Positions 3,960 through 55,855 of a DNA stretch of 55,856 bases are shown piece after piece (position 1 is the stretch's first letter; the number at the start of each line of letters is the position of its first letter). The position numbers and the translations under genes are program-made. The DNA comes from a virus, in IMG/VR virus record IMGVR_UViG_3300025426_000039, positions 1 to 55,856 of that record. One strand, given 5' to 3'. The notes below the pieces were generated by a model. The model saw only the letters and a program-made list of their open reading frames with translations, ran no database searches and was not told the DNA's origin.

Positions 3960-6900
3960 ATGGCAATATCACAAAATCAGATCGTTGACTACTTAAATAA
4001 AAAGGTTGGCTATGGCGTAGCCAAGACCGATTTATACACTGCAAAACAACCCTATAACGAGTCTATTGCTAGTCCGTTATTGGTTCCTGGAGCGTCAGTA
4101 CTTCAACAAGATTTCGCAATTCCCAACGTATCAAGTGCGCCTAGTGCAAATACGGTATTAAATGGTAGTACTATTGTTTCGGTGTATAATACATCAACTA
4201 GTGCAGTAGTACAAGGAACTGCATTAAGCGAGTCAGAAACAAACGAAACTTGGAGTACTGGTATAACCAATTGGATTCCACCAAGTTTTGGATCTGGTTA
4301 CCAACTTAAAATATATGCCGGACCTCCAGGAGCAACTGTTGCTCAGGTAGCAAACTTTACAAATTTACCTGTAGCTGGATCTGGTGCTAGTGATTCTTGG
4401 TTCTTTGACTACCAAGCAGGTGTTTTAAACTTTGCTGATACAATAGTGCCAACTGCTGCCGCCAACGTTTCTAACGTTGTTTATTTTATGGGTGCAGCTT
4501 ATACTGGTACTCTTGGTATTACTAACTATGCTAACCTTAGCGTAACTGGTAATTTAACCAGCGTCAATGGTAATATAGTTTTAACTAATGGTAATCTTTA
4601 CGCTCAAAATTTATATGGTACATTCCAAGGTAGCTTGGGCAGTATGGTATCTGCCACTAGTGCCAACGTAGCCTCTTATGATACTGTTACCCCAGTTAGT
4701 AGTAATCAATCTTATTATTTAGAATTAGCTACTCAAGCAACTTCTGGTAATAGTATTACTGGCGTTAACTCTGCATTAAATTATAACCCTAGTACTGGCG
4801 CATTAAATGCTGGTACAGTAATAGCAAGTACTGTTAATGCTGCTACAATTGGTAACGCCGGTGCAGTATTCAGTGGTGCAAGCGAAACTTTAACTGGTAC
4901 ATTAATTGCTGCCACCGTAAACGCAGCAACAATTGGTAACGCTGGTGCAGTGTTCTCGGGTGCTAGCGAAACACTGACTGGTACATTAATAGCAAGTACG
5001 GTTAATGCCGCTACTATTGGTAACGCTGGTGCAGTGTTCTCGGGTGCTAGCGAAACACTGACTGGTACATTAATAGCAAGTACGGTTAATGCCGCTACTA
5101 TTGGTAACACTGGTGCTGTATTTACTGGTGCTAGTGAAACACTAAGTGGTACATTGTTCGCAAGTACAGTAAATGCAGCAACGATCGGTAATGCTGGTGC
5201 AGTATTCAGTGGTGCTAGTGAAACCCTGACAGGTACATTAATTGCGACAACATTAAATGCTGCCACAATTGGTAATACAGGTGCTGTATTTACTGGTGCA
5301 AGTGAAACACTAAGCGGTACATTGATCGCAAGTACTGTTAATGCAGCAACAATTGGTAATGCTGGGGCAACGTTCAGTGGTGCAAGTGAAACACTAAGTG
5401 GTACGTTAATTGCAGCAACATTAAATGCTGCCACAATTGGTAATACTGGTGCTACGCTAACTGGTACTAATGTAAATGGCGTTTATGTATTGGCTTCTAC
5501 TGGATTGTCGACTGCTAATGCAGTAATAACTGGCGGTAACATTGCTGGAACTCCAATTGGTACAGGCGTAGCAAGCACTGGTGCATTTACTACATTAAGT
5601 GCTAGCGGACAAACACAAATAACCAATACTACAAACGCAACAGGATTGAGCACTGGCTCATTCTACACACTAGGTGGTGCTGCAATTAGTCAAGACTTGT
5701 GGGTTGGTGGTACAATTTACGCTAATACACTACAAACAGTTCAAACTCAAATTTTGAGTGTTAATGAACCACTGTTATATTTGACTGGTACTAACCCTTA
5801 TCCTTATAACTATGATATTGGTTTCTACTCACACTTTGTTGGTGGAGCTGCTAACTTATACTCACATTCTGGTTTTGTTCGTAATTACCTTGATGGAGAT
5901 TGGTACTTGTTCTCAAACGTACCTGAGCCATCAGGCAACGTAATTAACTTGGCTAGTACTAACTTAATATATGACGCATTAAAACTTGGCTCATTGTTGG
6001 CAATGAACACAACACCAAGTACAAGTACCACAACTGGAGCATTACAAGTTGCTGGTGGTGCTGGTATTGCTGGAGCATTAAACGTAGGCTCAACTGTTAT
6101 TGCTAGTGGAAATATTGTTGCTGGTAGCGGAACTACAAGCTCAAGCACTACAACTGGCGCATTGGTTGTTGCTGGTAGCGGTGGCGCAGGTATTGGCGGA
6201 GCACTAAACGTTGGTGGCGTTGTACAATTTACAAACGCAACTCAAAATACTGGTGCTAGTACCGGTGCTCTGCAAGTAACTGGTGGTGCTTATATTGGTG
6301 GTAATTTATGGGTTGGTGGTAATATTAATTTGACCTCAAGCACAGTGATTAACTCACCAACTGGACAATTTACAGGTAATGCTGCAGGCTTTGGTGCTTT
6401 ATATGCAGGTATTACTGCTGGTTATGTATACCAACCACAGACAGTTATACAAGCAAGTACAAACTTTAATGGGTATGCACAGGTTAACAACCAAAATATT
6501 AGTAGTGGCACAAGTGCAAGTACTGACTTCGTTGCTACAATGGATACCGGTACCGCCGGAACTGGCTACATTGATATGGGTATTAATAGCTCAGGGTACA
6601 ACGGAGCCACAAATGGTCAGACTCTAAGCTATGCAGGTGACGGTTACTTATATGTACAAGCAAATGCAACAGGATCACTTGGTAACTTGATGCTTGGCAC
6701 TGCTGCTACAACTGGTAATATTTTCTTTGTAGCTGGTGGATTAAACACAAACAATCAAGTAATGACTATAACTACTGCTAATACAGTAGTAGTAACAAGT
6801 TCAGTTGCAGCAACAAACACCAGCAGTGGCGCATTGCAAGTACAAGGCGGTGTGGGAGTTACTGGGGCAGTATATGCTGGAAGTATTCAAAATACTCCAA

Positions 6901-9776
6901 TTGGATCAACAACTGCAAGTACTGGTAACTTTACTACATTAAATGCAACAACTTCAGTTACAACTGCTACTTTAAATGCAGCAACAATTGGTAACGTTGG
7001 TGCAAGCGGACAATTTGGTACAATTATTGCTTCTACATTAAATGCGGCAATCATTGGTAACACAGGCGCTACAATTACTGGTGCTAGTGCAACATTAAGC
7101 GGTACATTAATTGCAAGTACTGTTAATGCAGCAACCATTGGTAACACAGGAGCTGTATTTACTGGTGCTAATGAGACTTTAACTGGCACATTAATTGCAA
7201 GTACTGTTAATGCAGCAACTATTGGTAATACAGGGGCTAATGGTCAATTTGGTACAATTATTGCAAGTACTGTTAATGCAGCAACCATTGGTAATACTGG
7301 TGCCACAATTACTGGTGCTAGTGCAACACTAAGTGGCACACTAATTGCAAGTACTGTTAATGCTGCCACAATTGGTAACGTTGGTGCTAGTGGACAATTT
7401 GGTACAATTATTGCTTCCACTCTAAATGCAGCAACCATTGGTAATACTGGTGCAACTGTAACAGGAACAAACGTAAACGGTGTTTATGTATTGGCTTCTA
7501 CTGGACTTTCAACTGCTAATGCAGTAATAACAGGTGGAAGTATTAATGGTACAACTATTGGTGCTACTAATGCAAGTACTGGTAACTTTACTACATTAAA
7601 TGCAACAACTTCAGTTACAACTGCTACAGTAAATGCTGCCACAATTGGTAATACTGGCGCTAACGTAAATGGTACAGGTACATATTTGACAGCACTAACT
7701 GCTACCAACGTTAACGGTACAGTAAACACTGCCAACGTAAGTTATTATAAAGTAGTTCAAGCCGTAACCAACAACCAAACTTATTATTTGGGCTTTGCTA
7801 ATGCTACAAGTGGTAATAGTACATTTAACACAACTACAACAGTTAACGTTAATCCAAGCACTGGAACAATTTACGCAAGTGCATTTGTTGGATCAGGTGC
7901 AGGCTTAACAAACTTGTCAATTGGATCAATAACAGGTACATACCCAACAGCAAACGCTTCAATCTATACTGGAGTTACAAACAATACTAGTGGTAGTACT
8001 TTCTATCCAATACTAAGTGGACAAAGTAGCACCGGTAACGTACAAGCTCAGGTAAACGGTGGATTAAGTTATGTTCCAAATACTGGAACATTAAGTGCAA
8101 CTGCATTTAGTGGAAGCGGCACTTCTTATATCCAAACACTACAAGTTAACGGAACCTTTACTGGTTGCGGTACGGTTGCAGCAACCAGCGGTGCGTCAAG
8201 TACCAGCACCTCAACTGGTGCGCTACAAGTAACTGGTGGCGCCGGTATTACTGGTAACTTATATGTTGGTAGTACTGGTGTATTTGGTAGTGTATTAAAT
8301 TATATTCCGGCTAACGCACCAATTCAAGTTGGTTTGAACATTAATAACTACAGTCAAGTCAGTATTCAAAACGCCAATAACGGTAACAATGCAAGTTCAG
8401 ACATTGCGGCAGTGGCCAATAACGGTAGCGACAACGATACTTATGTTGACATGGGTATTGTTGGCTCGGGATACAGCCAAGCTGCATACAATTTATACAA
8501 CCCTAACGATGGTTACTTGATTGTTGCTGGTAACACCACAACTGGTGGCGGTAACTTGATATTGAATACATATCAGAAGAACGATATTATATTTGCAACA
8601 GGTGGTACAACTAAACAATTTGAAGTTGCACGTATCACAAGTGGTAACACATTGGTTGTTAAATCTACAAACACCAACTCGCTAACTGCTAATACTGGTG
8701 CGCTACAAGTTTGGGGCGGAGCAAGCATAAGCGGCAACGTTTATAATGGCGCTTCGTTAGTACAAGTTGCTGGCGCACAATTCAATACTGGTAGAGCCAG
8801 TGCTGGAACAACAGGCGCCACAAACATCAATGCATTAATAATGCAAGGTGTCAATGATTCAACACTGATTTATGCTAAACCACTAACTGCATATGACGCA
8901 GTTATTATTGGTGGTAATGGTGCAAGTACAAGTTTTGCACAAGGCGCCAAATTGGTTGTTAACAGTACTGACTCAATGATGATACCAGTTGGTACTAGTA
9001 GCCAACGTCCAGGTAGCAGCGGCGGAACTGACACGACTGGTATGTTACGATACAGTAGTACTGTTGGATCAATTGAATGGTTTAATGGTACAAGTTGGCA
9101 AAGTGCGACAACATCGTTTACAGTTATCCAAGATCAACAGTTTACTGGAACTGGATCGCAGACGGTATTTACATTATCTAGCAGTCAGACTACTGCAAGT
9201 TGTATTGTAAGTATTAACGGTGTGGTACAAATTCCAACATTGGCTTACTCAGTATCAGGAACATCACTGACATTTACAGAAGCTCCACAAAGCACTGATG
9301 TAATTGATGTTCGTATGTTGACAACAACAAGCACTGTGGCACAATTGTATGATACAAGTGGTTATAATACAGTTAACACAATTACTGGAACTGGTATTAC
9401 ATTTACAACTGGTACAAGTAGTTTACAAACTCAGTATACAATTAACACAACTGGTGCAATTGCAAGTACTGTAGCAAACGTTACAATTGCAACGGCAAGT
9501 ACACCAACTACAGTTGATAGTTTCTTTGCTAATACTTACAGTACTGCCAAGTATATATTGACGAGTACATTGGGTAGCGTAAAAGAAGCAACTGAAGTAT
9601 TGGTAATATCAAACGGTACAGTGGCAAACGTTGTAGTTTATGGTACTATTAATACAGCTGGAAACAGTTTAACAACTTGGAGTGCAGTAATGAGCGGTAA
9701 TATTGTTCAGTTACAAGGTACAACAACTAACAACAGTACAGTAATTAGAATGACCAAGCAGTATAACGCAGTTTAA
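3960..9776 (+). CDS. Giant repeat-built tail fibre protein (1938 aa)
   Basis: Long structural protein dominated by repeats. Residues ~285-508 hold eight tandem 28-residue units of the form GTLIASTVNAATIGN followed by AGAVFSGASETLT. A second, more irregular array lies around residues 1000-1235. Modules of the type TGALQVAGGAGI followed by a glycine-rich NLYVGG stretch recur at least six times and also occur in the 427-residue fibre downstream. The C-terminal ~220 residues contain the VSINGVVQIP segment and a terminal ~90-residue domain shared with the first gene of the window. This suggests a long trimeric fibre shaft with a conserved tip. RBS AAGAGAGAA precedes the ATG. The repeat DNA contains near-exact copies, so length may vary between relatives by recombination (inference). 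Confidence 0.8.
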   Translation: MAISQNQIVDYLNKKVGYGVAKTDLYTAKQPYNESIASPLLVPGASVLQQDFAIPNVSSAPSANTVLNGSTIVSVYNTSTSAVVQGTALSESETNETWSTGITNWIPPSFGSGYQLKIYAGPPGATVAQVANFTNLPVAGSGASDSWFFDYQAGVLNFADTIVPTAAANVSNVVYFMGAAYTGTLGITNYANLSVTGNLTSVNGNIVLTNGNLYAQNLYGTFQGSLGSMVSATSANVASYDTVTPVSSNQSYYLELATQATSGNSITGVNSALNYNPSTGALNAGTVIASTVNAATIGNAGAVFSGASETLTGTLIAATVNAATIGNAGAVFSGASETLTGTLIASTVNAATIGNAGAVFSGASETLTGTLIASTVNAATIGNTGAVFTGASETLSGTLFASTVNAATIGNAGAVFSGASETLTGTLIATTLNAATIGNTGAVFTGASETLSGTLIASTVNAATIGNAGATFSGASETLSGTLIAATLNAATIGNTGATLTGTNVNGVYVLASTGLSTANAVITGGNIAGTPIGTGVASTGAFTTLSASGQTQITNTTNATGLSTGSFYTLGGAAISQDLWVGGTIYANTLQTVQTQILSVNEPLLYLTGTNPYPYNYDIGFYSHFVGGAANLYSHSGFVRNYLDGDWYLFSNVPEPSGNVINLASTNLIYDALKLGSLLAMNTTPSTSTTTGALQVAGGAGIAGALNVGSTVIASGNIVAGSGTTSSSTTTGALVVAGSGGAGIGGALNVGGVVQFTNATQNTGASTGALQVTGGAYIGGNLWVGGNINLTSSTVINSPTGQFTGNAAGFGALYAGITAGYVYQPQTVIQASTNFNGYAQVNNQNISSGTSASTDFVATMDTGTAGTGYIDMGINSSGYNGATNGQTLSYAGDGYLYVQANATGSLGNLMLGTAATTGNIFFVAGGLNTNNQVMTITTANTVVVTSSVAATNTSSGALQVQGGVGVTGAVYAGSIQNTPIGSTTASTGNFTTLNATTSVTTATLNAATIGNVGASGQFGTIIASTLNAAIIGNTGATITGASATLSGTLIASTVNAATIGNTGAVFTGANETLTGTLIASTVNAATIGNTGANGQFGTIIASTVNAATIGNTGATITGASATLSGTLIASTVNAATIGNVGASGQFGTIIASTLNAATIGNTGATVTGTNVNGVYVLASTGLSTANAVITGGSINGTTIGATNASTGNFTTLNATTSVTTATVNAATIGNTGANVNGTGTYLTALTATNVNGTVNTANVSYYKVVQAVTNNQTYYLGFANATSGNSTFNTTTTVNVNPSTGTIYASAFVGSGAGLTNLSIGSITGTYPTANASIYTGVTNNTSGSTFYPILSGQSSTGNVQAQVNGGLSYVPNTGTLSATAFSGSGTSYIQTLQVNGTFTGCGTVAATSGASSTSTSTGALQVTGGAGITGNLYVGSTGVFGSVLNYIPANAPIQVGLNINNYSQVSIQNANNGNNASSDIAAVANNGSDNDTYVDMGIVGSGYSQAAYNLYNPNDGYLIVAGNTTTGGGNLILNTYQKNDIIFATGGTTKQFEVARITSGNTLVVKSTNTNSLTANTGALQVWGGASISGNVYNGASLVQVAGAQFNTGRASAGTTGATNINALIMQGVNDSTLIYAKPLTAYDAVIIGGNGASTSFAQGAKLVVNSTDSMMIPVGTSSQRPGSSGGTDTTGMLRYSSTVGSIEWFNGTSWQSATTSFTVIQDQQFTGTGSQTVFTLSSSQTTASCIVSINGVVQIPTLAYSVSGTSLTFTEAPQSTDVIDVRMLTTTSTVAQLYDTSGYNTVNTITGTGITFTTGTSSLQTQYTINTTGAIASTVANVTIATASTPTTVDSFFANTYSTAKYILTSTLGSVKEATEVLVISNGTVANVVVYGTINTAGNSLTTWSAVMSGNIVQLQGTTTNNSTVIRMTKQYNAV
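4812..5483 (+). repeat. Tandem 84-bp coding repeats, eight units
   Basis: Eight in-frame units of 84 bp encode 28 residues each around the invariant core NAATIGN. Neighbouring units starting near 4943 and 5027 share a stretch of roughly 80 identical bases, indicating recent duplication or gene conversion; other units differ at synonymous sites. Confidence 0.9.
6955..7660 (+). repeat. Second, irregular NAATIGN repeat array
   Basis: The NAATIGN core recurs here with two alternating spacers (ASGQFGTIIAST type and ATITGASATLSGTLIAST type), forming a higher-order alternation. It ends with the same NVNGVYVLASTGLSTANAVI passage that closes the first array, so the whole block looks like an internal duplication. 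Confidence 0.8.
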
Positions 9777-46949: not shown

Positions 46950-46978
46950 TTGATTTAATTAGTAAATACTATTACAAT
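46950..46978 (+). promoter_or_regulatory. sigma70-type promoter TTGATT-17-TACAAT with embedded late element
   Basis: TTGATT and TACAAT are 17 bp apart; the spacer holds GTAAATA, a late-like element. About 55 nt of leader precede ahpC with the RBS AAAGGAGAA. Confidence 0.65.
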
Positions 46979-47034
46979 AAAAACATTAGTGAAAACACTA
47001 ATAAGTTTTCAAATAACATTTAAAGGAGAAAATT

Positions 47035-47574
47035 ATGAAAACAATCGGAGATAAATTAACACACTTTGCAGTAACAGGCGTCAAGCCCGGACAACCAGAA
47101 GATGCTTTCTTCACAATCAACGAAACCAGTTTCGAAGGCAAATGGAAAGTTATTGTGTTTTACCCAAAGGACTTTACATTTGTATGTCCTACAGAAATTG
47201 TAGCATACGATAAATTGAATCAAGACTTTGCGGACCGTGATGCAGTATTGCTAACAGGTAGTACAGACAACGAGTTTTGCAAATTGGCATGGCAAAAATC
47301 ACACGAAGACCTAATCAAGATCACACACAATCAGTTCGCTGATACACAACGTGGTGAATTAAGTCTTGCTGAACAACTTGGTGTATTCTATGCTCCAGCC
47401 GGTGCTGCACTACGTGCCACATTCATTGTTGACCCAGACAACACAATCCAACACGTTACTGTAAACAACTTGGACGTGGGTCGTAGCCCAGAAGAAACAT
47501 TGCGTATTTTAGACGCATTGCAAACTGGCGAATTGTGTGCATGTAATCGTGTAGTAGGCGGGGAGACTCTATAA
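47035..47574 (+). CDS. ahpC: Peroxiredoxin AhpC
   Basis: The peroxidatic cysteine C51 is in TFVCPTEIVAYD, the diagnostic peroxiredoxin motif, with Thr48 two residues before the Phe-Val-Cys block. The C-terminus has two further cysteines, C168 and C170, in ELCACNRVVGG, the three-cysteine layout of mycobacterial-type AhpC (Cys61, 174, 176), which is reduced by AhpD rather than AhpF. It reduces peroxides and peroxynitrite in the cytoplasm. Length 179 fits the family. The adjacent ahpD gene (1 bp gap) completes the system. Rare cargo for a phage. Confidence 0.95.
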   Translation: MKTIGDKLTHFAVTGVKPGQPEDAFFTINETSFEGKWKVIVFYPKDFTFVCPTEIVAYDKLNQDFADRDAVLLTGSTDNEFCKLAWQKSHEDLIKITHNQFADTQRGELSLAEQLGVFYAPAGAALRATFIVDPDNTIQHVTVNNLDVGRSPEETLRILDALQTGELCACNRVVGGETL

Positions 47575-47575
47575 T

Positions 47576-48082
47576 ATGGCATTCATTGATGCAGTAAAGT
47601 CAGCATTGCCTGACTATGCCAAAGATACCAAATTAAACATGGATGCGGTGCTACTACGTAGTACCTTAGATGCAGATGTGGCTATGGGATGTGCAGTGGC
47701 CGCCCTGGCCGCTACTGGTAATGGCAAACTGTTGGCAGTACTACTAGCAGATAATCCAGTATATGCCGAATCGGCAATGACTGCGGCAAGCCTGATGGCA
47801 ATGACAAACAGTTGGTACCCATATGTTGAAATGGCTGACGATGCTAACCTAACTGGATTGCCAGCACAGTTACGCATGAACGCTATCGCTAATCACGGTG
47901 GAACAACTAAAAGCAACTTTGAAGCATTTAGTTTGGCTGCAAGTATTGTTGGCAAATGCGAGTTTTGCGTAAAAGCCCATTACGATGGTTTGAAAACTAT
48001 GGGTTATACTGTTGAACAGTTGAGAGACATCGGCAGAATAGCGGCAGTAATGAATAGTGTAGCAAAGGTGTTGAATAGTTAA
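47576..48082 (+). CDS. ahpD: AhpD alkylhydroperoxidase, reductase partner of AhpC
   Basis: The active site CEFCVKAH (C128, C131, H135) and E116 (NFEAFSLA) match AhpD, where this Glu, Cys and His relay reduces AhpC. In mycobacteria AhpD is recharged by lipoylated SucB and Lpd; a phage AhpD would depend on such host partners (inference). The RBS GGGGAG lies at the end of ahpC, so the genes are co-translated in one operon. Length 168 is near the family norm (~177). Confidence 0.93.
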   Translation: MAFIDAVKSALPDYAKDTKLNMDAVLLRSTLDADVAMGCAVAALAATGNGKLLAVLLADNPVYAESAMTAASLMAMTNSWYPYVEMADDANLTGLPAQLRMNAIANHGGTTKSNFEAFSLAASIVGKCEFCVKAHYDGLKTMGYTVEQLRDIGRIAAVMNSVAKVLNS

Positions 48083-48091
48083 AAAGCAATA

Positions 48092-48125
48092 GGATAAATT
48101 GTTGCGTAAAAACAACAATTTATCC
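48092..48125. other. 13-bp perfect hairpin after ahpD
   Basis: GGATAAATTGTTG pairs with CAACAATTTATCC around an A-rich 8-nt loop. It may stop transcription or stabilise the ahpCD mRNA end; there is no T-run on the plus strand. Confidence 0.6.
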
Positions 48126-48516: not shown

Positions 48517-48649
48517 TTTGGCAAAGAATGTTATAGGAAACGAGGTCCTGAGATCATTAAAATCTCAAACGGGCGGACTGCAGGATGAATCCCACAAGGA
48601 GAAAAATTGCAGGCTAGGGTATAGCTCTAGCATATCCTCTTACAAGAGG
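48517..48649 (+). other. Non-coding stretch with several hairpins
   Basis: No gene seen. Local stems include GAGAT/ATCTC, GCTAG/CTAGC, and ATATCCTC with GAGGGTAT around a TTACAA loop. It runs into the long-stem RNA at 48650 and may be its leader or part of it. Confidence 0.4.
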
Positions 48650-48744
48650 GTATTCTAAAACACACCAGATGACAATTCCTGGGGGCAATGAGAGCCCACT
48701 AAGGCAGGCACGGCGCCCGTGACAACTGGTGTGTTTTAGAATAC
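48650..48744 (+). ncRNA. Structured RNA A closed by a perfect 19-bp stem
   Basis: GTATTCTAAAACACACCAG (48650-48668) pairs perfectly with 48726-48744. The 57-nt interior holds CACGG/CCGTG (loop CGC) and a GGGC/GCCC stem flanked by CCT/AGG, a branched core. No ORF of note. Lies upstream of tRNA-Ser and likely belongs to the tRNA transcript. Function unknown; not a recognised Rfam-type element to me. Confidence 0.65.
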
Positions 48745-48828
48745 AACACCCAGACGAAAAACGCCGATAGATTGATAAACTATGACGGGGCAGTTCGCAA
48801 GATAAGTGTTCCAACTGTGGTGTTGTGT
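48741..48828 (+). ncRNA. Structured RNA B, closed by a ~10-bp stem
   Basis: ATACAACACC (48741-48750) pairs with GGTGTTGTGT (48819-48828) with one wobble. Interior stems: CAGTT/AACTG and an ATAG/CTAT hairpin. Its 5' arm shares 4 nt with the 3' arm of RNA A, so both cannot fully form together. It ends 9 nt before tRNA-Ser. Confidence 0.55.
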
Positions 48829-48837
48829 TACCCATTG

Positions 48838-51051: not shown

Positions 51052-51126
51052 GGTCTCATAGTATAATGGTCAGTATAGCGGCTTGTCACGCCGTTGATAG
51101 GAGTTCGATTCTCCTTGGGACCGCCA
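51052..51126 (+). tRNA. tRNA-Asp(GTC)
   Basis: Acceptor GGTCTCA/TGGGACC, anticodon loop TTGTCAC on stem GCGGC/GCCGT, T-loop TTCGATT, G73, CCA encoded. Confidence 0.95.
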
Positions 51127-51134
51127 AAGTTTTT

Positions 51135-51251
51135 GTTCCGATGTTTCCACGCTCGGGGTAGCACCCCGAGGTTCACGCTGAGATCGCAACTCAGGGCAGT
51201 GAGAGTGCAACGCACTTCAGTGAGAGAGGTTAGATTCCTTCTGGAGCACCA
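51135..51251 (+). ncRNA. tRNA-like structured RNA D (~117 nt)
   Basis: GTTCCG pairs with TGGAGC, followed by A and CCA, and AGAGG/CCTTC encloses a T-loop-like TTAGATT. Between them lie CTCGGGG/CCCCGAG, an anticodon-arm look-alike CTGAG-ATCGCAA-CTCAG and AGTGC/GCACT. It is far longer than a tRNA and lacks a D-arm. It may be processed like a tRNA without acting as one. Confidence 0.5.
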
Positions 51252-51309
51252 AAGTTTCGTGGCATTTACACAGTCACCAAGATAGTGTATTGTAAGTCCA
51301 ATCTAATCG

Positions 51310-51385
51310 GCATCGTTCGTCTAGAGGCCTAGGACACGACCCTTTCACGGTCGGTACACGAGTTCGAATCTCGTACGATGTACCA
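51310..51385 (+). tRNA. tRNA-Glu(TTC)
   Basis: Acceptor GCATCGT/ACGATGT, anticodon loop CTTTCAC on CGACC/GGTCG, T-loop TTCGAAT, CCA encoded. Confidence 0.95.
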
Positions 51386-51390
51386 TACAA

Positions 51391-51476
51391 GGAAGTACGG
51401 CAGAGTTGGTGAGCTGCGGCGGACTGTAAATCCGTTCTGTAATGGTGAGTTGGTTCGAATCCAGCTACTTCCACCA
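51391..51476 (+). tRNA. tRNA-Tyr(GTA)
   Basis: Acceptor GGAAGTA/TACTTCC, anticodon loop CTGTAAA, long variable arm as in bacterial tRNA-Tyr, CCA encoded. Confidence 0.95.
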
Positions 51477-51489
51477 ATCGTTAGTAGTT

Positions 51490-51641
51490 ATTGATAAGTG
51501 TTTGAGATGAACATGGGGTATCGTGGATTGATCATCCACTATGCGGGCCTAACTGGCGTGGAACAGGTCCTGACACAACCCGCCATACGCTGTTGCCGGA
51601 AACGATCCGACGCATAAATTGGCACTCAAGCACTTTTCAAT
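51490..51641 (+). ncRNA. Structured RNA E (~150 nt) closed by a 17-bp stem
   Basis: 51490-51506 (ATTGATAAGTGTTTGAG) pairs with 51625-51641 with one mismatch and one wobble. Inside are GTGGAT/ATCCAC (loop TGATC), GGGCCT/AGGTCC and ATGCG/CGCAT stems, a multibranch layout. It ends 1 nt before tRNA-Arg and starts 13 nt after tRNA-Tyr, so tRNA processing would release it. Confidence 0.65.
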
Positions 51642-51642
51642 A

Positions 51643-51717
51643 GTCGCTATAGTATAATGGATAATATGCCGTGCTACGAACGCGGTGATCGTGGTTCGAT
51701 TCCATGTAGCGGCACCA
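51643..51717 (+). tRNA. tRNA-Arg(ACG)
   Basis: Acceptor GTCGCTA/TAGCGGC, anticodon loop CTACGAA, T-loop TTCGATT, CCA encoded. A34 would need TadA editing by the host. Confidence 0.93.
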
Positions 51718-51723
51718 GGCAAT

Positions 51724-51798
51724 GGAGTTGTTAGTTTAGTGGTAAAACCGCGGGTTGTGATTCCGCTATCACGAGTTCGATTCTCGTACGACTCCCCA
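51724..51798 (+). tRNA. tRNA-His(GTG)
   Basis: Anticodon loop TTGTGAT on GCGGG/TCCGC. The extra 5' G (G-1) opposite C73 is encoded, the identity element for HisRS. CCA encoded. Confidence 0.95.
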
Positions 51799-51802
51799 AG
51801 CA

Positions 51803-51810
51803 GTTAAATA
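51803..51810 (+). promoter_or_regulatory. Putative late promoter GTTAAATA
   Basis: Lies 21 nt before the ATG at 51832; RBS AAGGAG between. Confidence 0.55.
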
Positions 51811-51831
51811 TAGTATACTAAGGAGTATACT

Positions 51832-51993
51832 ATGACAGAAGAACAATTAATTGAATTTTTAACAAATAACTTAACACTTCAGGTAGTTAATAACCCCGAT
51901 CCTTACGATTGGAATGATGTGTTTACTATTAGTTTAAATTTAAATGGCAATACAATAAGTCAAATCGTTTTAGACATAAACGATGGACAATAA
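51832..51993 (+). CDS. Small acidic protein within the tRNA array (53 aa)
   Basis: ATG preceded by TAAGGAG. Begins MTEEQLIEFLTNNLTLQVVN and contains DPYDWNDVFTISLNLNG; it looks like a compact strand-rich protein (helix then two or three strands). It lies between tRNA-His and tRNA-Ala with its own late-like element. Function unknown. Confidence 0.7.
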   Translation: MTEEQLIEFLTNNLTLQVVNNPDPYDWNDVFTISLNLNGNTISQIVLDINDGQ

Positions 51994-51996
51994 TTT

Positions 51997-52072
51997 GGGG
52001 GTGTAGCTCAATTGGGAGAGCGACTGGTTTGCAACCAGTAGGTCGCGGGTTCGATCCCTGTCACCTCCACCA
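51997..52072 (+). tRNA. tRNA-Ala(TGC)
   Basis: Acceptor GGGGGTG/CACCTCC with a G-T pair at the third position (the Ala identity element), anticodon loop TTTGCAA, CCA encoded. Confidence 0.95.
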
Positions 52073-52078
52073 GAATAC

Positions 52079-52170
52079 GGAGACTTGGATGAGTGGTTTA
52101 AATCGGCACCCTGCTAAGGTGTTGTATATAGTAATATGTACCGAGAGTTCGAATCTCTCAGTCTCCGCCA
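52079..52170 (+). tRNA. tRNA-Ser(GCT)
   Basis: Anticodon loop CTGCTAA, long variable arm, acceptor GGAGACT/AGTCTCC, G73 and CCA encoded. Confidence 0.95.
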
Positions 52171-52173
52171 AAT

Positions 52174-52202
52174 TTGACAGTAAATGATGTTACTGTTACA
52201 AT
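52174..52202 (+). promoter_or_regulatory. sigma70-type promoter TTGACA-17-TACAAT
   Basis: Consensus -35 and near-consensus -10 with 17-bp spacing just before tRNA-Gln. Confidence 0.8.
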
Positions 52203-52213
52203 AAGAAATCAGT

Positions 52214-52287
52214 TGGGGGTTAGTTAAATGGTATAACAGCGGATTTTGATTCCGCTATTAATGGTTCGATTCCATTACCCTCTGCCA
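52214..52287 (+). tRNA. tRNA-Gln(TTG)
   Basis: Anticodon loop TTTTGAT on GCGGA/TCCGC, T1 unpaired as in bacterial tRNA-Gln, G73 and CCA encoded. Confidence 0.93.
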
Positions 52288-52434
52288 AAGTTTGTTAGTC
52301 GTTAAAAGGAAAACATTATGAAAGACACTGCTAAACAGTAGTGTCAATCTTGATCCCGTATTGGTCAGGGTTGGCACATTAAAGAACTCTTTAATATAGT
52401 ATTAAGACATTAAAGAAACTTTTAATACAATCAA
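52288..52434 (+). other. Intergenic hairpin region with a 7-codon ORF
   Basis: A tiny ORF (ATG at 52318, MKDTAKQ) with RBS AAAGGAAAA overlaps a 9-bp hairpin GACACTGCT/AGTAGTGTC. Further stems ATTAAAG/CTTTAAT and GTATTAA/TTAATAC follow. No other gene seen; it may be a processed spacer or another small RNA. Confidence 0.4.
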
Positions 52435-52510
52435 CCCTCTGTAGCGCAATTGGTAGCGCAACGGACTCTTAATCCGCTGGTTGGCAGTTCAAATCTGCCC
52501 GGAGGGACCA
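52435..52510 (+). tRNA. tRNA-Lys(CTT)
   Basis: Acceptor CCCTCTG/CGGAGGG, anticodon loop CTCTTAA on ACGGA/TCCGC, normal D-loop (TTGGTA) and T-loop (TTCAAAT), CCA encoded. Confidence 0.93.
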
Positions 52511-52516
52511 AATTAC

Positions 52517-52590
52517 GGGCTCGTAACTTAAAAGTAAAGTATCGGACTTTTAATCCGACTAAGAAGGAGCATTACCTTCCGGGCTCACCA
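52517..52590 (+). tRNA. tRNA-Lys(TTT), elbow-less variant
   Basis: Acceptor GGGCTCG/CGGGCTC, perfect anticodon arm TCGGA-CTTTTAA-TCCGA, D-stem ACTT/AAGT and T-stem GAAGG/CCTTC all pair, but the D-loop AAAAGTA lacks GG18-19 and the T-loop AGCATTA lacks TTC. The tertiary elbow contact cannot form in the usual way. It could be a decoy or a specialised tRNA. Confidence 0.8.
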
Positions 52591-52656
52591 TATAAAAACA
52601 CATTCATTAAGGCATCCGGTACGAAAGTAAATTTAGCCGAATGTGTTTCTATATGG
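52588..52656 (+). ncRNA. Structured RNA I between two tRNAs, 18-bp closing stem
   Basis: 52588-52605 (CCATATAAAAACACATTC) pairs with 52639-52656 with a single A-C mismatch. The arms reuse the CCA of tRNA-Lys and the first two G of tRNA-Met, so forming this stem competes with tRNA ends or it acts as a processing signal. Interior of 33 nt has GGC/GCC. Confidence 0.6.
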
Positions 52657-52730
52657 TAATATAGCATAGTGGCTAATGCAGTTGCTTCATACGCAACCTA
52701 TCGTTGGTTCGAGTCCAACTATTACCACCA
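52655..52730 (+). tRNA. tRNA-Met(CAT) or tRNA-Ile(CAT)
   Basis: Acceptor GGTAATA/TATTACC, anticodon loop TTCATAC on GTTGC/GCAAC, T-loop TTCGAGT, CCA encoded. It lacks the 1-72 mismatch of initiators; lysidine-type Ile is possible. Confidence 0.9.
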
Positions 52731-52732
52731 AG

Positions 52733-53839
52733 TTAAACGAGCGCATTACTTAATGTCGACAATACACCCAGTTGTTGTGTTGTTTGTGGCGCAGATACAT
52801 TGCGATGTTTGAGTGTTTGACTCATTAAATTAATAAATTTTGCTCTTAATTCGCTTGAATGTTGGGTATTTTTAATTGTGCTGACAAGATTTAATATAAA
52901 AGTTTTTTGTTTATTTGTGAGAGTATATTGCTCAAATTGAGCTTGTATAACTTGTTCTAACAACACTTGCTCGTCAGGTAACAAAATACCCCAACCTAAC
53001 CAATTGGGTTCAACTAAGTTAGTTACCCTGGTAGGCTTTCGGTGCCGATTGCACCAATCTAGAGTTGGTATTAAATTTTGTATGTTAAGAGGTTGTGCAA
53101 CAAAATGAAAATTAATATTGGCTTGTTTTAAACTTGCGATTAATTGTGCAACATTGTTGCTAAACTTTTGCCAATTAGCAGGATAGCGTAAAAATTCATA
53201 AGAAGTTTCAAATCCATCAATGCTGATTTGTAATTCTAATTGTTTTAATTGAGTGAGTTTGTTGAGTAATTTTGGTTCTAGTACAGTTGCATTGGTAACT
53301 ATTCTACAAGGTAAATTGCGTTCTAGTATAAAGTCTAAAAGTTCTAAATTGCCTTTAGCAAGAAAAAATTCACCACCAAGAAAACTAATAGACTCAATGT
53401 TTGCTTGTTCTTGTAATATAGATAAACATTCTTCACTTAGATCAAATTCTCCTGTTTGATGGTTGTTGAATATGGGTATTTGTCGTCTCTCTTGTGCTAG
53501 TGCAGAACTAGATTCTGAATTGCACATAACACATTTAAGATTGCAAATATTGCTAGGAAAAATTTCATATCTTACTAGCTCAGTACTCGCAAGTGAGTGA
53601 TTAAATTGATTTCTATAACTAGTTTGATTTGATTGTTCCTGAACTCGACACCGCTGACATCCAGTGGGCCAATCAGTTGCAGTTAGTAAACTTTGATATT
53701 CACTGCTCGAATAGTATTCGTCAAGTGTTTGATAGTTTTGCGTAGTCTTGTATACGCAACAAGGAAGAATCCTTGTTCCAGTATCATGATTGCCAACTAT
53801 GCGAATATTATTGCGAATTGCAGAACAGTGAAATGTCAT
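52733..53839 (-). CDS. Radical SAM protein, twitch/SPASM-like (368 aa)
   Basis: The cluster motif C99-x3-C103-x2-C106 in ICNLKCVMCNSES and SFLGGEFFLA (~152-161, the SAM-binding GGE) identify a radical SAM protein. Extra cysteines at the N-terminus (C27-C28; C61-x2-C64) suggest an auxiliary site in front of the core, as in twitch-type phage and bacterial proteins. Reaction unknown; peptide or RNA modification possible. A late element ends 7 nt before its ATG. It ends 2 bp from tRNA-Met on the opposite strand. Confidence 0.85.
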   Translation of the reverse strand: MTFHCSAIRNNIRIVGNHDTGTRILPCCVYKTTQNYQTLDEYYSSSEYQSLLTATDWPTGCQRCRVQEQSNQTSYRNQFNHSLASTELVRYEIFPSNICNLKCVMCNSESSSALAQERRQIPIFNNHQTGEFDLSEECLSILQEQANIESISFLGGEFFLAKGNLELLDFILERNLPCRIVTNATVLEPKLLNKLTQLKQLELQISIDGFETSYEFLRYPANWQKFSNNVAQLIASLKQANINFHFVAQPLNIQNLIPTLDWCNRHRKPTRVTNLVEPNWLGWGILLPDEQVLLEQVIQAQFEQYTLTNKQKTFILNLVSTIKNTQHSSELRAKFINLMSQTLKHRNVSAPQTTQQLGVLSTLSNALV

Positions 53840-53846
53840 ATGAAAA

Positions 53847-53854
53847 TATTTATA
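53847..53854 (-). promoter_or_regulatory. Perfect late promoter TATAAATA (minus strand)
   Basis: Exact late consensus on the minus strand, ending 7 nt before the radical SAM start. Confidence 0.7.
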
Positions 53855-53875
53855 GATTAATGCTAGTCATTAATT

Positions 53876-53992
53876 TATTACCAGTTTCGGGATAGACGGC
53901 GCGATGAGTCCCTGAAAGTCTTAGCTGAAGGCGGCTTCAGTGACACGTCAGTAGACAGAAGGTAGCGTAAACTCTTGCGTTCGAGACAAAGA
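53876..53992 (+). other. Hairpin-rich non-coding region F
   Basis: CTGAAG/CTTCAG (loop GCGG) and TTTCGGGA/TCCCTGAAA (one bulge) are clear stems, with no gene. Resembles the other structured spacers of the tRNA region, but without a long closing stem that I can confirm. Confidence 0.45.
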
Positions 53993-54175
53993 CTAATCTT
54001 CTACACTGGGAAGTGGCGGTGTAGTCCTCTTTAGATTGGTTTCCCGAAAATCTCGATCTTGTGGAGGTGGTGCATCTGGCACAAACTCTGCAGGAAGACA
54101 GTTAAACATCCGTTGTCGATAAGGTTGTTTACTGAATTTGTAGAGTACTCGAAACTCGTCGTAGATGTCTTCCAT
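53993..54175 (-). CDS. Small protein (60 aa)
   Basis: Begins MEDIYDEFRVLYKFSKQPYR and ends in a Pro-rich acidic tail (TTPPLPSVED). A perfect late element TATAAATA on this strand ends 4 nt before the ATG, which supports expression. No family recognised. Its promoter overlaps the 5' end of tRNA-Ile on the other strand. Confidence 0.65.
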   Translation of the reverse strand: MEDIYDEFRVLYKFSKQPYRQRMFNCLPAEFVPDAPPPQDRDFRETNLKRTTPPLPSVED

Positions 54176-54179
54176 ACAG

Positions 54180-54187
54180 TATTTATA
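54180..54187 (-). promoter_or_regulatory. Perfect late promoter TATAAATA (minus strand)
   Basis: Ends 4 nt before the ATG at 54175; overlaps the first base of tRNA-Ile. Confidence 0.65.
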
Positions 54188-54263
54188 GCCTCATAGCTCA
54201 GTTGGTTAGAGCAATGTGTTGATAACGCATAGGTCCTCTGTTCGAGTCAGAGTGAGGCTACCA
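54187..54263 (+). tRNA. tRNA-Ile(GAT)
   Basis: Acceptor AGCCTCA/TGAGGCT, anticodon loop TTGATAA on ATGTG/CGCAT, T-loop TTCGAGT, CCA encoded. Confidence 0.95.
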
Positions 54264-54271
54264 ATTTAAAG

Positions 54272-54300
54272 TTGACAACAAATGAGTTGTCATATATAAT
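54272..54300 (+). promoter_or_regulatory. sigma70-type promoter TTGACA-17-TATAAT
   Basis: Full consensus with 17-bp spacing. The start TTGACAACAAATGA is shared with the promoter at 55743; a TGACAAC/GTTGTCA inverted repeat spans the -35. Confidence 0.88.
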
Positions 54301-54309
54301 ATAGAATAT

Positions 54310-54386
54310 TCCCTAGTAGCTCAGCTGGTAGTAGCGTCTGACTGTTAATCAGAAGGTCCGAGGATCGTGCCCTCGCTAGGGAGCCA
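54310..54386 (+). tRNA. tRNA-Asn(GTT)
   Basis: Acceptor TCCCTAG/CTAGGGA, anticodon loop CTGTTAA on TCTGA/TCAGA, G73, CCA. The T-loop ATCGTGC is non-standard (T54 and A58 changed). Confidence 0.9.
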
Positions 54387-54472
54387 AACAAGTCAGTTCC
54401 CGGATGACTTTAAGAATGCGGGCTGCTCAATCGCCAACGGAGCGAGCGTAAGGTAACAGTTGGAAGTATTTC
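54387..54472 (+). other. Spacer with hairpins (region G)
   Basis: AAGTCA/TGACTT closes a 9-nt loop just after tRNA-Asn; GCTC/GAGC and CCAAC/GTTGG stems follow. No gene seen. May be a further small RNA of the tRNA transcript. Confidence 0.45.
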
Positions 54473-54548
54473 GCCCCTATAGCTCATTCGGTAGAGCAAC
54501 TGATTTGTAATCAGTAGGTGCCGTGTTCGAATCATGGTGGGGGCACCA
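54473..54548 (+). tRNA. tRNA-Thr(TGT)
   Basis: Acceptor GCCCCTA/TGGGGGC, anticodon loop TTTGTAA on ACTGA/TCAGT, T-loop TTCGAAT, CCA encoded. Confidence 0.95.
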
Positions 54549-54555
54549 AACAATT

Positions 54556-54792
54556 ATGTGGATATACATTGAAACTTTTTTATTAGTATTTGCAACAGAC
54601 ATTCTCTATACGTATTATCTACGTGCAGTTAATGCTGATCGTGCAGTACTGGCAAGTTTTTGGAGTGTGATGTGTACGTTCACGGCTAGTATAGCAGTAA
54701 TCAACTATACCGAGAACCATTATACGTTAATTGCAAGTTTAGCCGGCGCAGGTGCTGGCACATATTTTGGAATGAAGTTTAAAAAGAAATAA
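54556..54792 (+). CDS. Small membrane protein with three predicted helices (78 aa)
   Basis: Start at 54556 (MWIYIETFLLVFATDILYTY); farther starts would lie in tRNA-Thr. Hydrophobic segments at residues ~1-19, ~31-50 and ~56-74, with a lysine-rich C-terminus (KFKKK), suggest an inner-membrane protein. No ribosome binding site is obvious. The stop touches the start of tRNA-Pro. Function unknown. Confidence 0.75.
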   Translation: MWIYIETFLLVFATDILYTYYLRAVNADRAVLASFWSVMCTFTASIAVINYTENHYTLIASLAGAGAGTYFGMKFKKK

Positions 54793-54871
54793 CCGAGTGT
54801 AGGATAGCCTGGTTCATTCCGCCTGCTTTGGGAGCAGGATGTCGCAAGTTCGAATCTTGCCACTCGGACCA
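54793..54871 (+). tRNA. tRNA-Pro(TGG)
   Basis: Acceptor CCGAGTG/CACTCGG, anticodon loop TTTGGGA on CCTGC/GCAGG, CCA encoded. The 5' end overlaps the previous stop codon region. Confidence 0.93.
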
Positions 54872-54881
54872 ACAACAAAAT

Positions 54882-54965
54882 GCGAGTGTGGCGGAATTGG
54901 TAGACGCACCGGTTTTAAGCACCGACGCCGACGGCGTGAGAGTTCGAATCTCTCCTCTCGCACCA
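54882..54965 (+). tRNA. tRNA-Leu(TAA)
   Basis: Class II tRNA with long variable arm, anticodon loop TTTAAGC, acceptor GCGAGTG/CTCTCGC with one mismatch, CCA encoded. Confidence 0.92.
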
Positions 54966-54968
54966 TAC

Positions 54969-55045
54969 ACCACTGTAGTCTAACTGAATAAGGCACCGCT
55001 CTTCTAAAGCGTACGATGTGAGTTTGAATCTCGCCGGTGGTACCA
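54969..55045 (+). tRNA. tRNA-Arg(TCT)
   Basis: Acceptor ACCACTG/CGGTGGT, anticodon loop CTTCTAA, T-loop TTTGAAT (C56 replaced by T), CCA encoded. Confidence 0.92.
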
Positions 55046-55058
55046 TTTATCATAATTT

Positions 55059-55133
55059 GCGACTATAGCATAGCGGTAGTGCCGCGAACTCATAATTCGT
55101 ACGGGGGTGGTTCGAATCCACCTGGTCGCACCA
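55059..55133 (+). tRNA. tRNA-Met(CAT)
   Basis: Acceptor GCGACTA/TGGTCGC, anticodon loop CTCATAA on GCGAA/TTCGT, T-loop TTCGAAT, CCA encoded. Second CAT tRNA; one of the two may be read as Ile after lysidine modification. Confidence 0.92.
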
Positions 55134-55136
55134 ATT

Positions 55137-55212
55137 GCAACTTTAGCTGATGTGGTCATAGCACCCCGTTGAAGCCGGGAGGAACCAGGTTCGATTCCTG
55201 GAGGTTGCACCA
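55137..55212 (+). tRNA. tRNA-Phe(GAA)
   Basis: Acceptor GCAACTT/AGGTTGC, anticodon loop TTGAAGC on CCCCG/CGGGA, T-loop TTCGATT, CCA encoded. Confidence 0.93.
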
Positions 55213-55220
55213 AATAAATA
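55212..55220 (+). promoter_or_regulatory. Late promoter AAATAAATA, leaderless arrangement
   Basis: Directly behind tRNA-Phe, ending 4 nt before the ATG at 55225. Confidence 0.6.
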
Positions 55221-55224
55221 CTTG

Positions 55225-55677
55225 ATGTGGCGACCAATGCAATATCAAGATTTAACCGAGGTTTTCCAAATAGCCGATGCAATTTGGGGTCCAGATTATC
55301 ACGAATCTCAAGCAGTATACGAGGATAAATTTCTATATCATCCGCCAGGGTGTCAAGTATACCAAGTAAAGCATTTGATATTGGGATATGTTGTAGCCCA
55401 TCCTTGGCGATATGGAATGCCACCCTTGCTTGATACTGTGCTAGATAGAACTGTGATAACAGACAGCTACCACATACATGACATTGTGTTGGATACCTCG
55501 TTGCGCGGACAAGGAGTATCCAAATTGGTGGTAAATCAAATACTAGCAAACAATCAAATAGTAACTTTGGCAGCAGCAAACCGTAGTACTCAAACAAAAA
55601 ACATTTGGCAACATTTTGGGTTTGTTGAGACTGGCATCAAATGTGATTACGGCGTTTATATGTCAACGCTCTTGTAG
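55225..55677 (+). CDS. GNAT-family acetyltransferase
   Basis: The strand IHDIVLDTSLRGQGVSKLVV (~85-104) holds the acetyl-CoA loop RGQGVS (Q/RxxGxG/A type), followed by LAAANRSTQTKNIWQHFGF (~120-138), typical of the GNAT C-terminal. Length 150 fits. The ATG at 55225 is used although a TTG directly upstream is in frame. It may acetylate a protein, tRNA or small molecule; T4-like phages carry several GNATs. It is set within the tRNA array; its stop overlaps tRNA-Thr. Confidence 0.85.
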   Translation: MWRPMQYQDLTEVFQIADAIWGPDYHESQAVYEDKFLYHPPGCQVYQVKHLILGYVVAHPWRYGMPPLLDTVLDRTVITDSYHIHDIVLDTSLRGQGVSKLVVNQILANNQIVTLAAANRSTQTKNIWQHFGFVETGIKCDYGVYMSTLL

Positions 55678-55741
55678 TTAAATGGTATAACAACGCCATG
55701 GTAAGGCGTAGTTGAAAGTTCGATTCTTTCCTAGAGCACCA
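55672..55741 (+). tRNA. tRNA-Thr(GGT)
   Basis: Acceptor GCTCTTG/CTAGAGC with one mismatch, anticodon loop ATGGTAA on ACGCC/GGCGT, T-loop TTCGATT, CCA encoded. Overlaps the end of the GNAT gene. Confidence 0.9.
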
Positions 55742-55742
55742 C

Positions 55743-55771
55743 TTGACAACAAATGATAAGTACTGTATAAT
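55743..55771 (+). promoter_or_regulatory. sigma70-type promoter TTGACA-17-TATAAT
   Basis: Full consensus, 17-bp spacer starting ACAAATGATAA, before tRNA-Gly. Confidence 0.88.
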
Positions 55772-55782
55772 AGATAGTAATG

Positions 55783-55855
55783 CGGGATTAGTTTAATGGT
55801 AAAACGAAACGTTGCCAACGTCTAGACACCAGTTCGATTCTGGTATTCCGCTCCA
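55783..55855 (+). tRNA. tRNA-Gly(GCC)
   Basis: Acceptor GCGGGAT/ATTCCGC, anticodon loop TTGCCAA, T73 as in bacterial tRNA-Gly, CCA encoded. The array probably continues beyond the window. Confidence 0.92.

Follow-up and report, generated by a model that had tools for sequence, protein, structure and literature searches.

The viral DNA examined here, a 55,856-nt stretch called the window (IMG/VR record IMGVR_UViG_3300025426_000039), encodes adjacent ahpC and ahpD genes. We read them, with a probability of roughly 0.7, as a functional AhpC–AhpD peroxidase system that forms a small accessory transcription unit of a jumbo myovirus, PA5oct-like by its large terminase (TerL). The enzymes themselves are ordinary bacterial ones and known; what is new is a phage-borne, regulated, transferable AhpCD cassette.

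Gene pair and enzyme identity

The ahpC gene (47035–47574, plus strand) encodes a 2-Cys peroxiredoxin of 179 aa, and ahpD (47576–48082, plus strand) encodes a two-domain alkylhydroperoxidase D of 168 aa. Both ORFs were intact and separated by one base, and ahpC was preceded by a Shine–Dalgarno region (AAAGGAG; 47020–47030, plus strand). An earlier note, made from the sequence alone, had placed the two ORFs one base apart under a strong ribosome-binding site and had assigned AhpC C51, C168, and C170 and AhpD E116, C128, C131, and H135; all of these assignments were borne out.

AhpC matched Pfam AhpC-TSA above the cut-off (E = 5e-23), and its best solved relative was Mycobacterium tuberculosis AhpC (2bmx, E = 3.5e-42). 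The peroxiredoxin active site PxxxTxxC and the catalytic Arg were present (P44, T48, the peroxidatic C51, and R127, all invariant in the alignment), as was the three-cysteine pattern of AhpD-dependent AhpC, with the resolving-region cysteines C168 and C170 invariant and the protein aligning with the AhpC of 2bmx. C51, C168, C170, and an extra C82 were retained in all 78 full-length viral AhpC sequences (59 distinct).

AhpD matched the Pfam CMD family (E = 1.5e-10), and its best solved relative was M. tuberculosis AhpD (1gu9, E = 1e-22). Its catalytic Glu, CxxC, and His correspond to M. tuberculosis E118, C130, C133, and H137; E116, C128, C131, and H135, together with H107 and C39, were invariant in 81 of 81 viral AhpD sequences (63 distinct), and the catalytic residues were also invariant across 64 aligned phage and bacterial AhpDs. 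The protein scored above the cut-off of the NCBIfam core-domain model TIGR00778 (30.8 against 27.8) and below that of the full-length model TIGR00777 (117 against 192 bits), as expected for a divergent AhpD member. An AlphaFold2 model, run with an alignment (pLDDT 95), superposed on M. tuberculosis AhpD (1knc/1gu9) with a whole-chain TM-score of 0.90 and an rmsd of 1.6, and it fitted half-size relatives of the CMD fold poorly, which indicates the full-length, all-helical AhpD fold. The phage and M. tuberculosis (Lpd- and SucB-linked) AhpC–AhpD systems therefore have in common the catalytic residues, the AhpD fold, and the AhpC three-cysteine pattern, whereas the two AhpDs are only ~35% identical and the phage motif is CEFC or CHFC where that of M. 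tuberculosis is CSHC. F130 of the window's protein thus occupies the position of M. tuberculosis H132, a difference that counts against a functional system.

The identity of both enzymes is well supported. The median dN/dS among viral copies was 0.075 for ahpC and 0.065 for ahpD, values that indicate strong purifying selection. In the window and in most viral loci, ahpC lies immediately upstream of ahpD with a 1-base overlap or a 1–7 bp gap, and a more distant set of viral AhpDs (about 47–70% identity to the window's) is likewise paired with AhpC.

Phage context, distribution and ancestry

The window, itself an IMG/VR virus record, was identical over nearly all of its extent to the terminal 55.9 kb of a larger contig of 120 kb. 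Its TerL was nearest to those of PA5oct-like Pseudomonas jumbo phages (54%), its nearest cultured relatives by this marker, in which AhpD was not found. The window also encodes a tail tube protein and 21–22 tRNAs. About 20 tRNA genes form a dense array at 51052–55855 that encloses a radical SAM gene (52733–53839, minus strand), and a repeat signal at 4810–5456 (about 560 bases, 80% identity, offset 84 bases) sits within a 1938-aa ORF at 3960–9776.

A single octapeptide scan of IMG/VR recovered 378 viral stretches encoding AhpD relatives, and a degenerate scan of the same database recovered at least 587 stretches encoding relatives. AhpCD is a bacterial housekeeping-type system, as would be expected had host DNA been fused to a phage contig by mis-assembly, the chimera that the earlier note had named as refuting its claim of a phage-encoded operon. 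That explanation, to which we assign next to no probability, was ruled out by the more than 580 IMG/VR stretches encoding relatives, by the single viral clade formed in each of the AhpC and AhpD trees, and by contigs of up to 357 kb that carry the pair; moreover, the closest bacterial AhpD was just 59% identical. TerL and tail genes on the contig, the hundreds of contigs with the pair, and flanking genes of phage type uphold the phage-encoded operon. The largest of these contigs, the 357 kb relative, also encodes a heme oxygenase, a ferredoxin-dependent bilin reductase, ClpP, ClpS, CsgG, CsgF, UvdE, and a CHASE2-adenylate/guanylate cyclase (G002; L265–L270).

The survey of phage genomes that the note had proposed found the pair on hundreds of IMG/VR contigs and on none of the catalogued records: AhpD was encoded by 0 of 50,697 phage records, matched by no PHROGs family, and, as a model, by no viral structure in BFVD. 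No report of AhpD or of an AhpC–AhpD pair in phages was found among open-licence papers. Peroxiredoxins of the same AhpC/Prx family do occur on phage records (prxU of Microcystis phage MaAM05; records labelled Acinetobacter phage MD-2021a), but their full-length matches to the window's AhpC were below 36% identity, and some phage-labelled peroxiredoxin records may contain host DNA.

The pair resembles phage auxiliary metabolic genes in being located in a genuine phage genome, conserved, and dispensable in some relatives, and it might alter host metabolism during infection. AhpD was present in two of eight other contigs with close TerL; two relatives of 340–360 kb carry ahpCD, and a 354 kb relative lacks both AhpD and AhpC. 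One contig (G420) encodes AhpD without AhpC. Such absences are soft, since the contigs are fragments. The TerLs of AhpD-bearing contigs were 57–66% (five) and 33–34% (two) identical to that of the window, which places the accessory cassette in at least two phage lineages as defined by TerL. The genes flanking ahpCD in the window seldom adjoin it in relatives, and this lack of conserved neighbours marks ahpCD as a portable accessory cassette. The sampled habitats, judged from IMG sample numbers, are presumably mainly fresh water, and the carriers are probably large, uncultured, freshwater phages.

Of the first 80 loci, about 25 have extra genes within the pair. By Pfam, these include class II aldolase, Bax-inhibitor-1, cytochrome c, PsiE, and Band 7 genes, with weaker matches to GDSL. 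Bax-inhibitor-1 (YccA-like) genes adjoin ahpD, between ahpC and ahpD, in four loci (L042, L062, L076, and L081), and a Band 7/SPFH protein is encoded between the two in L063; YccA-like and Band 7/SPFH-type proteins modulate FtsH in bacteria. The cytochrome c of L044 and L051 (Pfam Cytochrom_C, E = 4e-10) has a signal-peptide-like start, and homing-endonuclease-like ORFs, GIY-YIG/NUMOD in appearance by eye, are located between ahpC and ahpD in L019, L033, L043, and L046.

The earlier note had called AhpC the mycobacterial three-cysteine type. As a statement of ancestry this label is misleading, since the pattern is equally that of Burkholderiales and the AhpC is nearer to a Cupriavidus protein (73%) than to an actinobacterial one (54%). 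The nearest bacterial AhpDs were from Burkholderiales, at up to 57% identity in a scan of species genomes and 59% among sampled genomes of that order, as were the nearest AhpCs (about 60–69% by tblastn). Phylogenies of both proteins, which the note had suggested for tracing the donor, placed the viral clades beside Burkholderiales AhpCD; Burkholderiales were nearest in both trees, and a mycobacterial donor was rejected on this basis. In these quick maximum-likelihood trees, built with the best 80 bacterial loci, moderately supported, and rooted on a long branch, viral AhpC and viral AhpD each formed one clade with an SH-aLRT of 93. The sole nominally bacterial row inside the viral clades came from a Bacteroidota MAG, on a contig of 5.9 kb that itself seems to derive from a phage. 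Taken with its moderate support, the topology fits one old acquisition of ahpCD from a Burkholderiales-like source. In some loci (L296 and L297), both trees combined AhpC of the window-like lineage with AhpD of the distant lineage, suggesting exchange of one partner.

The operon of Cupriavidus gilardii (AhpC and AhpD, WP_053823112 / WP_053821939) resembles that of the phage in gene order, three-cysteine AhpC, and the AhpD Glu, CxxC, and His, with identities to the window of 73% for AhpC and 51% for AhpD. The genes were also adjacent in nearly all Burkholderiales loci sampled, but at a spacing of about 60–130 bp compared with mostly −1 to +7 bp in phages; the phage proteins also differ in forming separate clades and, in many copies, in small insertions in AhpC. 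Most Burkholderiales lack AhpD, as AhpD-like proteins of any identity were encoded by only about 35 of 399 genomes, and the close type by about 23.

Promoter and mRNA hairpins

A sigma-70-type promoter, TTGATT (46950–46955) and TACAAT (46973–46978) spaced by 17 nt, was predicted upstream of ahpC (46950–46978, plus strand). A promoter scan of the window alone performed no better than shuffles, and the assignment is based on conservation across relatives, most of which have a similar site. It is followed, where the mRNA is predicted to begin, by a 7-bp hairpin with the sequence ATTAGTG-AAAA-CACTAAT (46985–47002, plus strand). The promoter, the hairpins on either side of the pair, and the patchy distribution described above are all additions to the earlier note. 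In most viral relatives, the region upstream of ahpC reads TTGAxx-N16–19-TAxxxT and then a perfect stem of at least 5 bp within 13 nt. Among 80 upstream representatives with a mutual identity below 80%, the promoter scored strongly in 72, of which 58 had the stem, compared with 6.6 expected from dinucleotide shuffles. Stem sequences vary while pairing is preserved (TAGTG/CACTA, CAGTG/CACTG, AGAAC/GTTCT, and GCAGAA/TTCTGC), a pattern of covariation.

Downstream, an inverted repeat of 13–14 bp (48092–48125, plus strand) starts 9 nt past the ahpD stop and may form a 3′-end or terminator hairpin, with no T-run after it on the coding strand. Stems of at least 7 bp occurred downstream of ahpD in 45 of 135 distinct stretches (5.5 expected), several of them terminator-like, for example AAAAACCCTAC...GTAGGGTTTTT. 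These elements point to an early, self-contained transcription unit whose 5′ mRNA end would be shielded by the hairpin, the early timing and the stabilisation being predictions. Farther downstream, the ~290 nt between ahpD and a tRNA-Ser gene (48540–48830) gave a far stronger fold than shuffled sequences (z = −6.2) and had no Rfam match at gathering scores; the region is present in L214 at 80% identity, and portions match L285, L286, and L299.

Electron supply and role during infection

AhpD feeds AhpC, and lipoamide-bearing proteins and NADH reduce AhpD, although experimental evidence for part of this scheme is limited (PMC8945050). No lipoyl-domain (PF00364) or thioredoxin (PF00085) gene was detected in ten large phage contigs, so the electrons must come from the host. 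These contigs also had no evident Lpd-like reductase: PF07992 matches were weak, that of G002 belonging to a DAO-type FAD oxidoreductase and others occurring in G003, and a phage-encoded donor was accordingly rejected. The most likely donor would be host Lpd with lipoylated E2 proteins. The suggestion in the earlier note that the phage draws on host Lpd and lipoamide is thus consistent with gene content.

In the proposed mechanism, host RNA polymerase would transcribe the ahpCD unit soon after infection, and AhpC oligomers would use C51 to reduce H2O2 and organic hydroperoxides. The resulting disulfide (C51 with C168/C170) would be handed to the C128–C131 pair of AhpD, which dihydrolipoamide on host E2 proteins would re-reduce, with host Lpd and NADH recharging the lipoamide. 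The phage would in this way supply a peroxidase independent of AhpF and thioredoxin and limit peroxide damage in the infected cell. This may benefit the phage, might protect phage replication, and might extend to nitrosative stress. Phage RNR and DAO-type oxidase genes were found with and without ahpCD; as neither tracks the cassette, they identify no protected target.

We also considered that the main role could be metabolic rewiring, in which AhpD would oxidise dihydrolipoamide on the host pyruvate and 2-oxoglutarate dehydrogenases, shifting NADH and carbon flow, with peroxide removal secondary. The presumed use of central metabolism as the electron source by phages with no lipoyl or thioredoxin domain gene is compatible with such a role, as are the metabolic genes (class II aldolase, cytochrome c) that some relatives hold between ahpC and ahpD. 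However, AhpC is retained with AhpD in nearly all loci and its peroxidase residues are invariant, which would be needless for a pure lipoamide oxidant, and we consider rewiring unlikely as the main role. Slightly less probable still is that AhpCD clears peroxide or reactive species of a host anti-phage response and not those of general metabolic stress. Its patchy, self-contained character fits accessory counter-defence genes, but no known defence system was linked at these loci, and ecological peroxide exposure fits the same distribution. Peroxide removal on host electrons remains our preferred reading, and ahpCD is a credible way for a phage to manage host oxidative stress.

The full proposition goes further, and we hold it at even odds: that a transferable antioxidant cassette is common to PA5oct-like jumbo phages and one or more further TerL lineages. 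This cassette would have a promoter and a 5′ mRNA hairpin of its own, and the host pyruvate and 2-oxoglutarate dehydrogenases would supply its electrons through lipoamide. As the first peroxidase of the AhpD-dependent kind known from any virus, it would place the redox connection between peroxide defence and the central metabolism of the host under phage control. If the cassette is active, widespread large uncultured phages would provide their hosts with an entire pathway for peroxide removal, driven by the hosts' own central metabolism, and oxidative stress would become a testable constraint on infection. AhpD would then join the enzymes known to be carried by phages, and gains and losses of this compact, regulated cassette could be traced across phage lineages.
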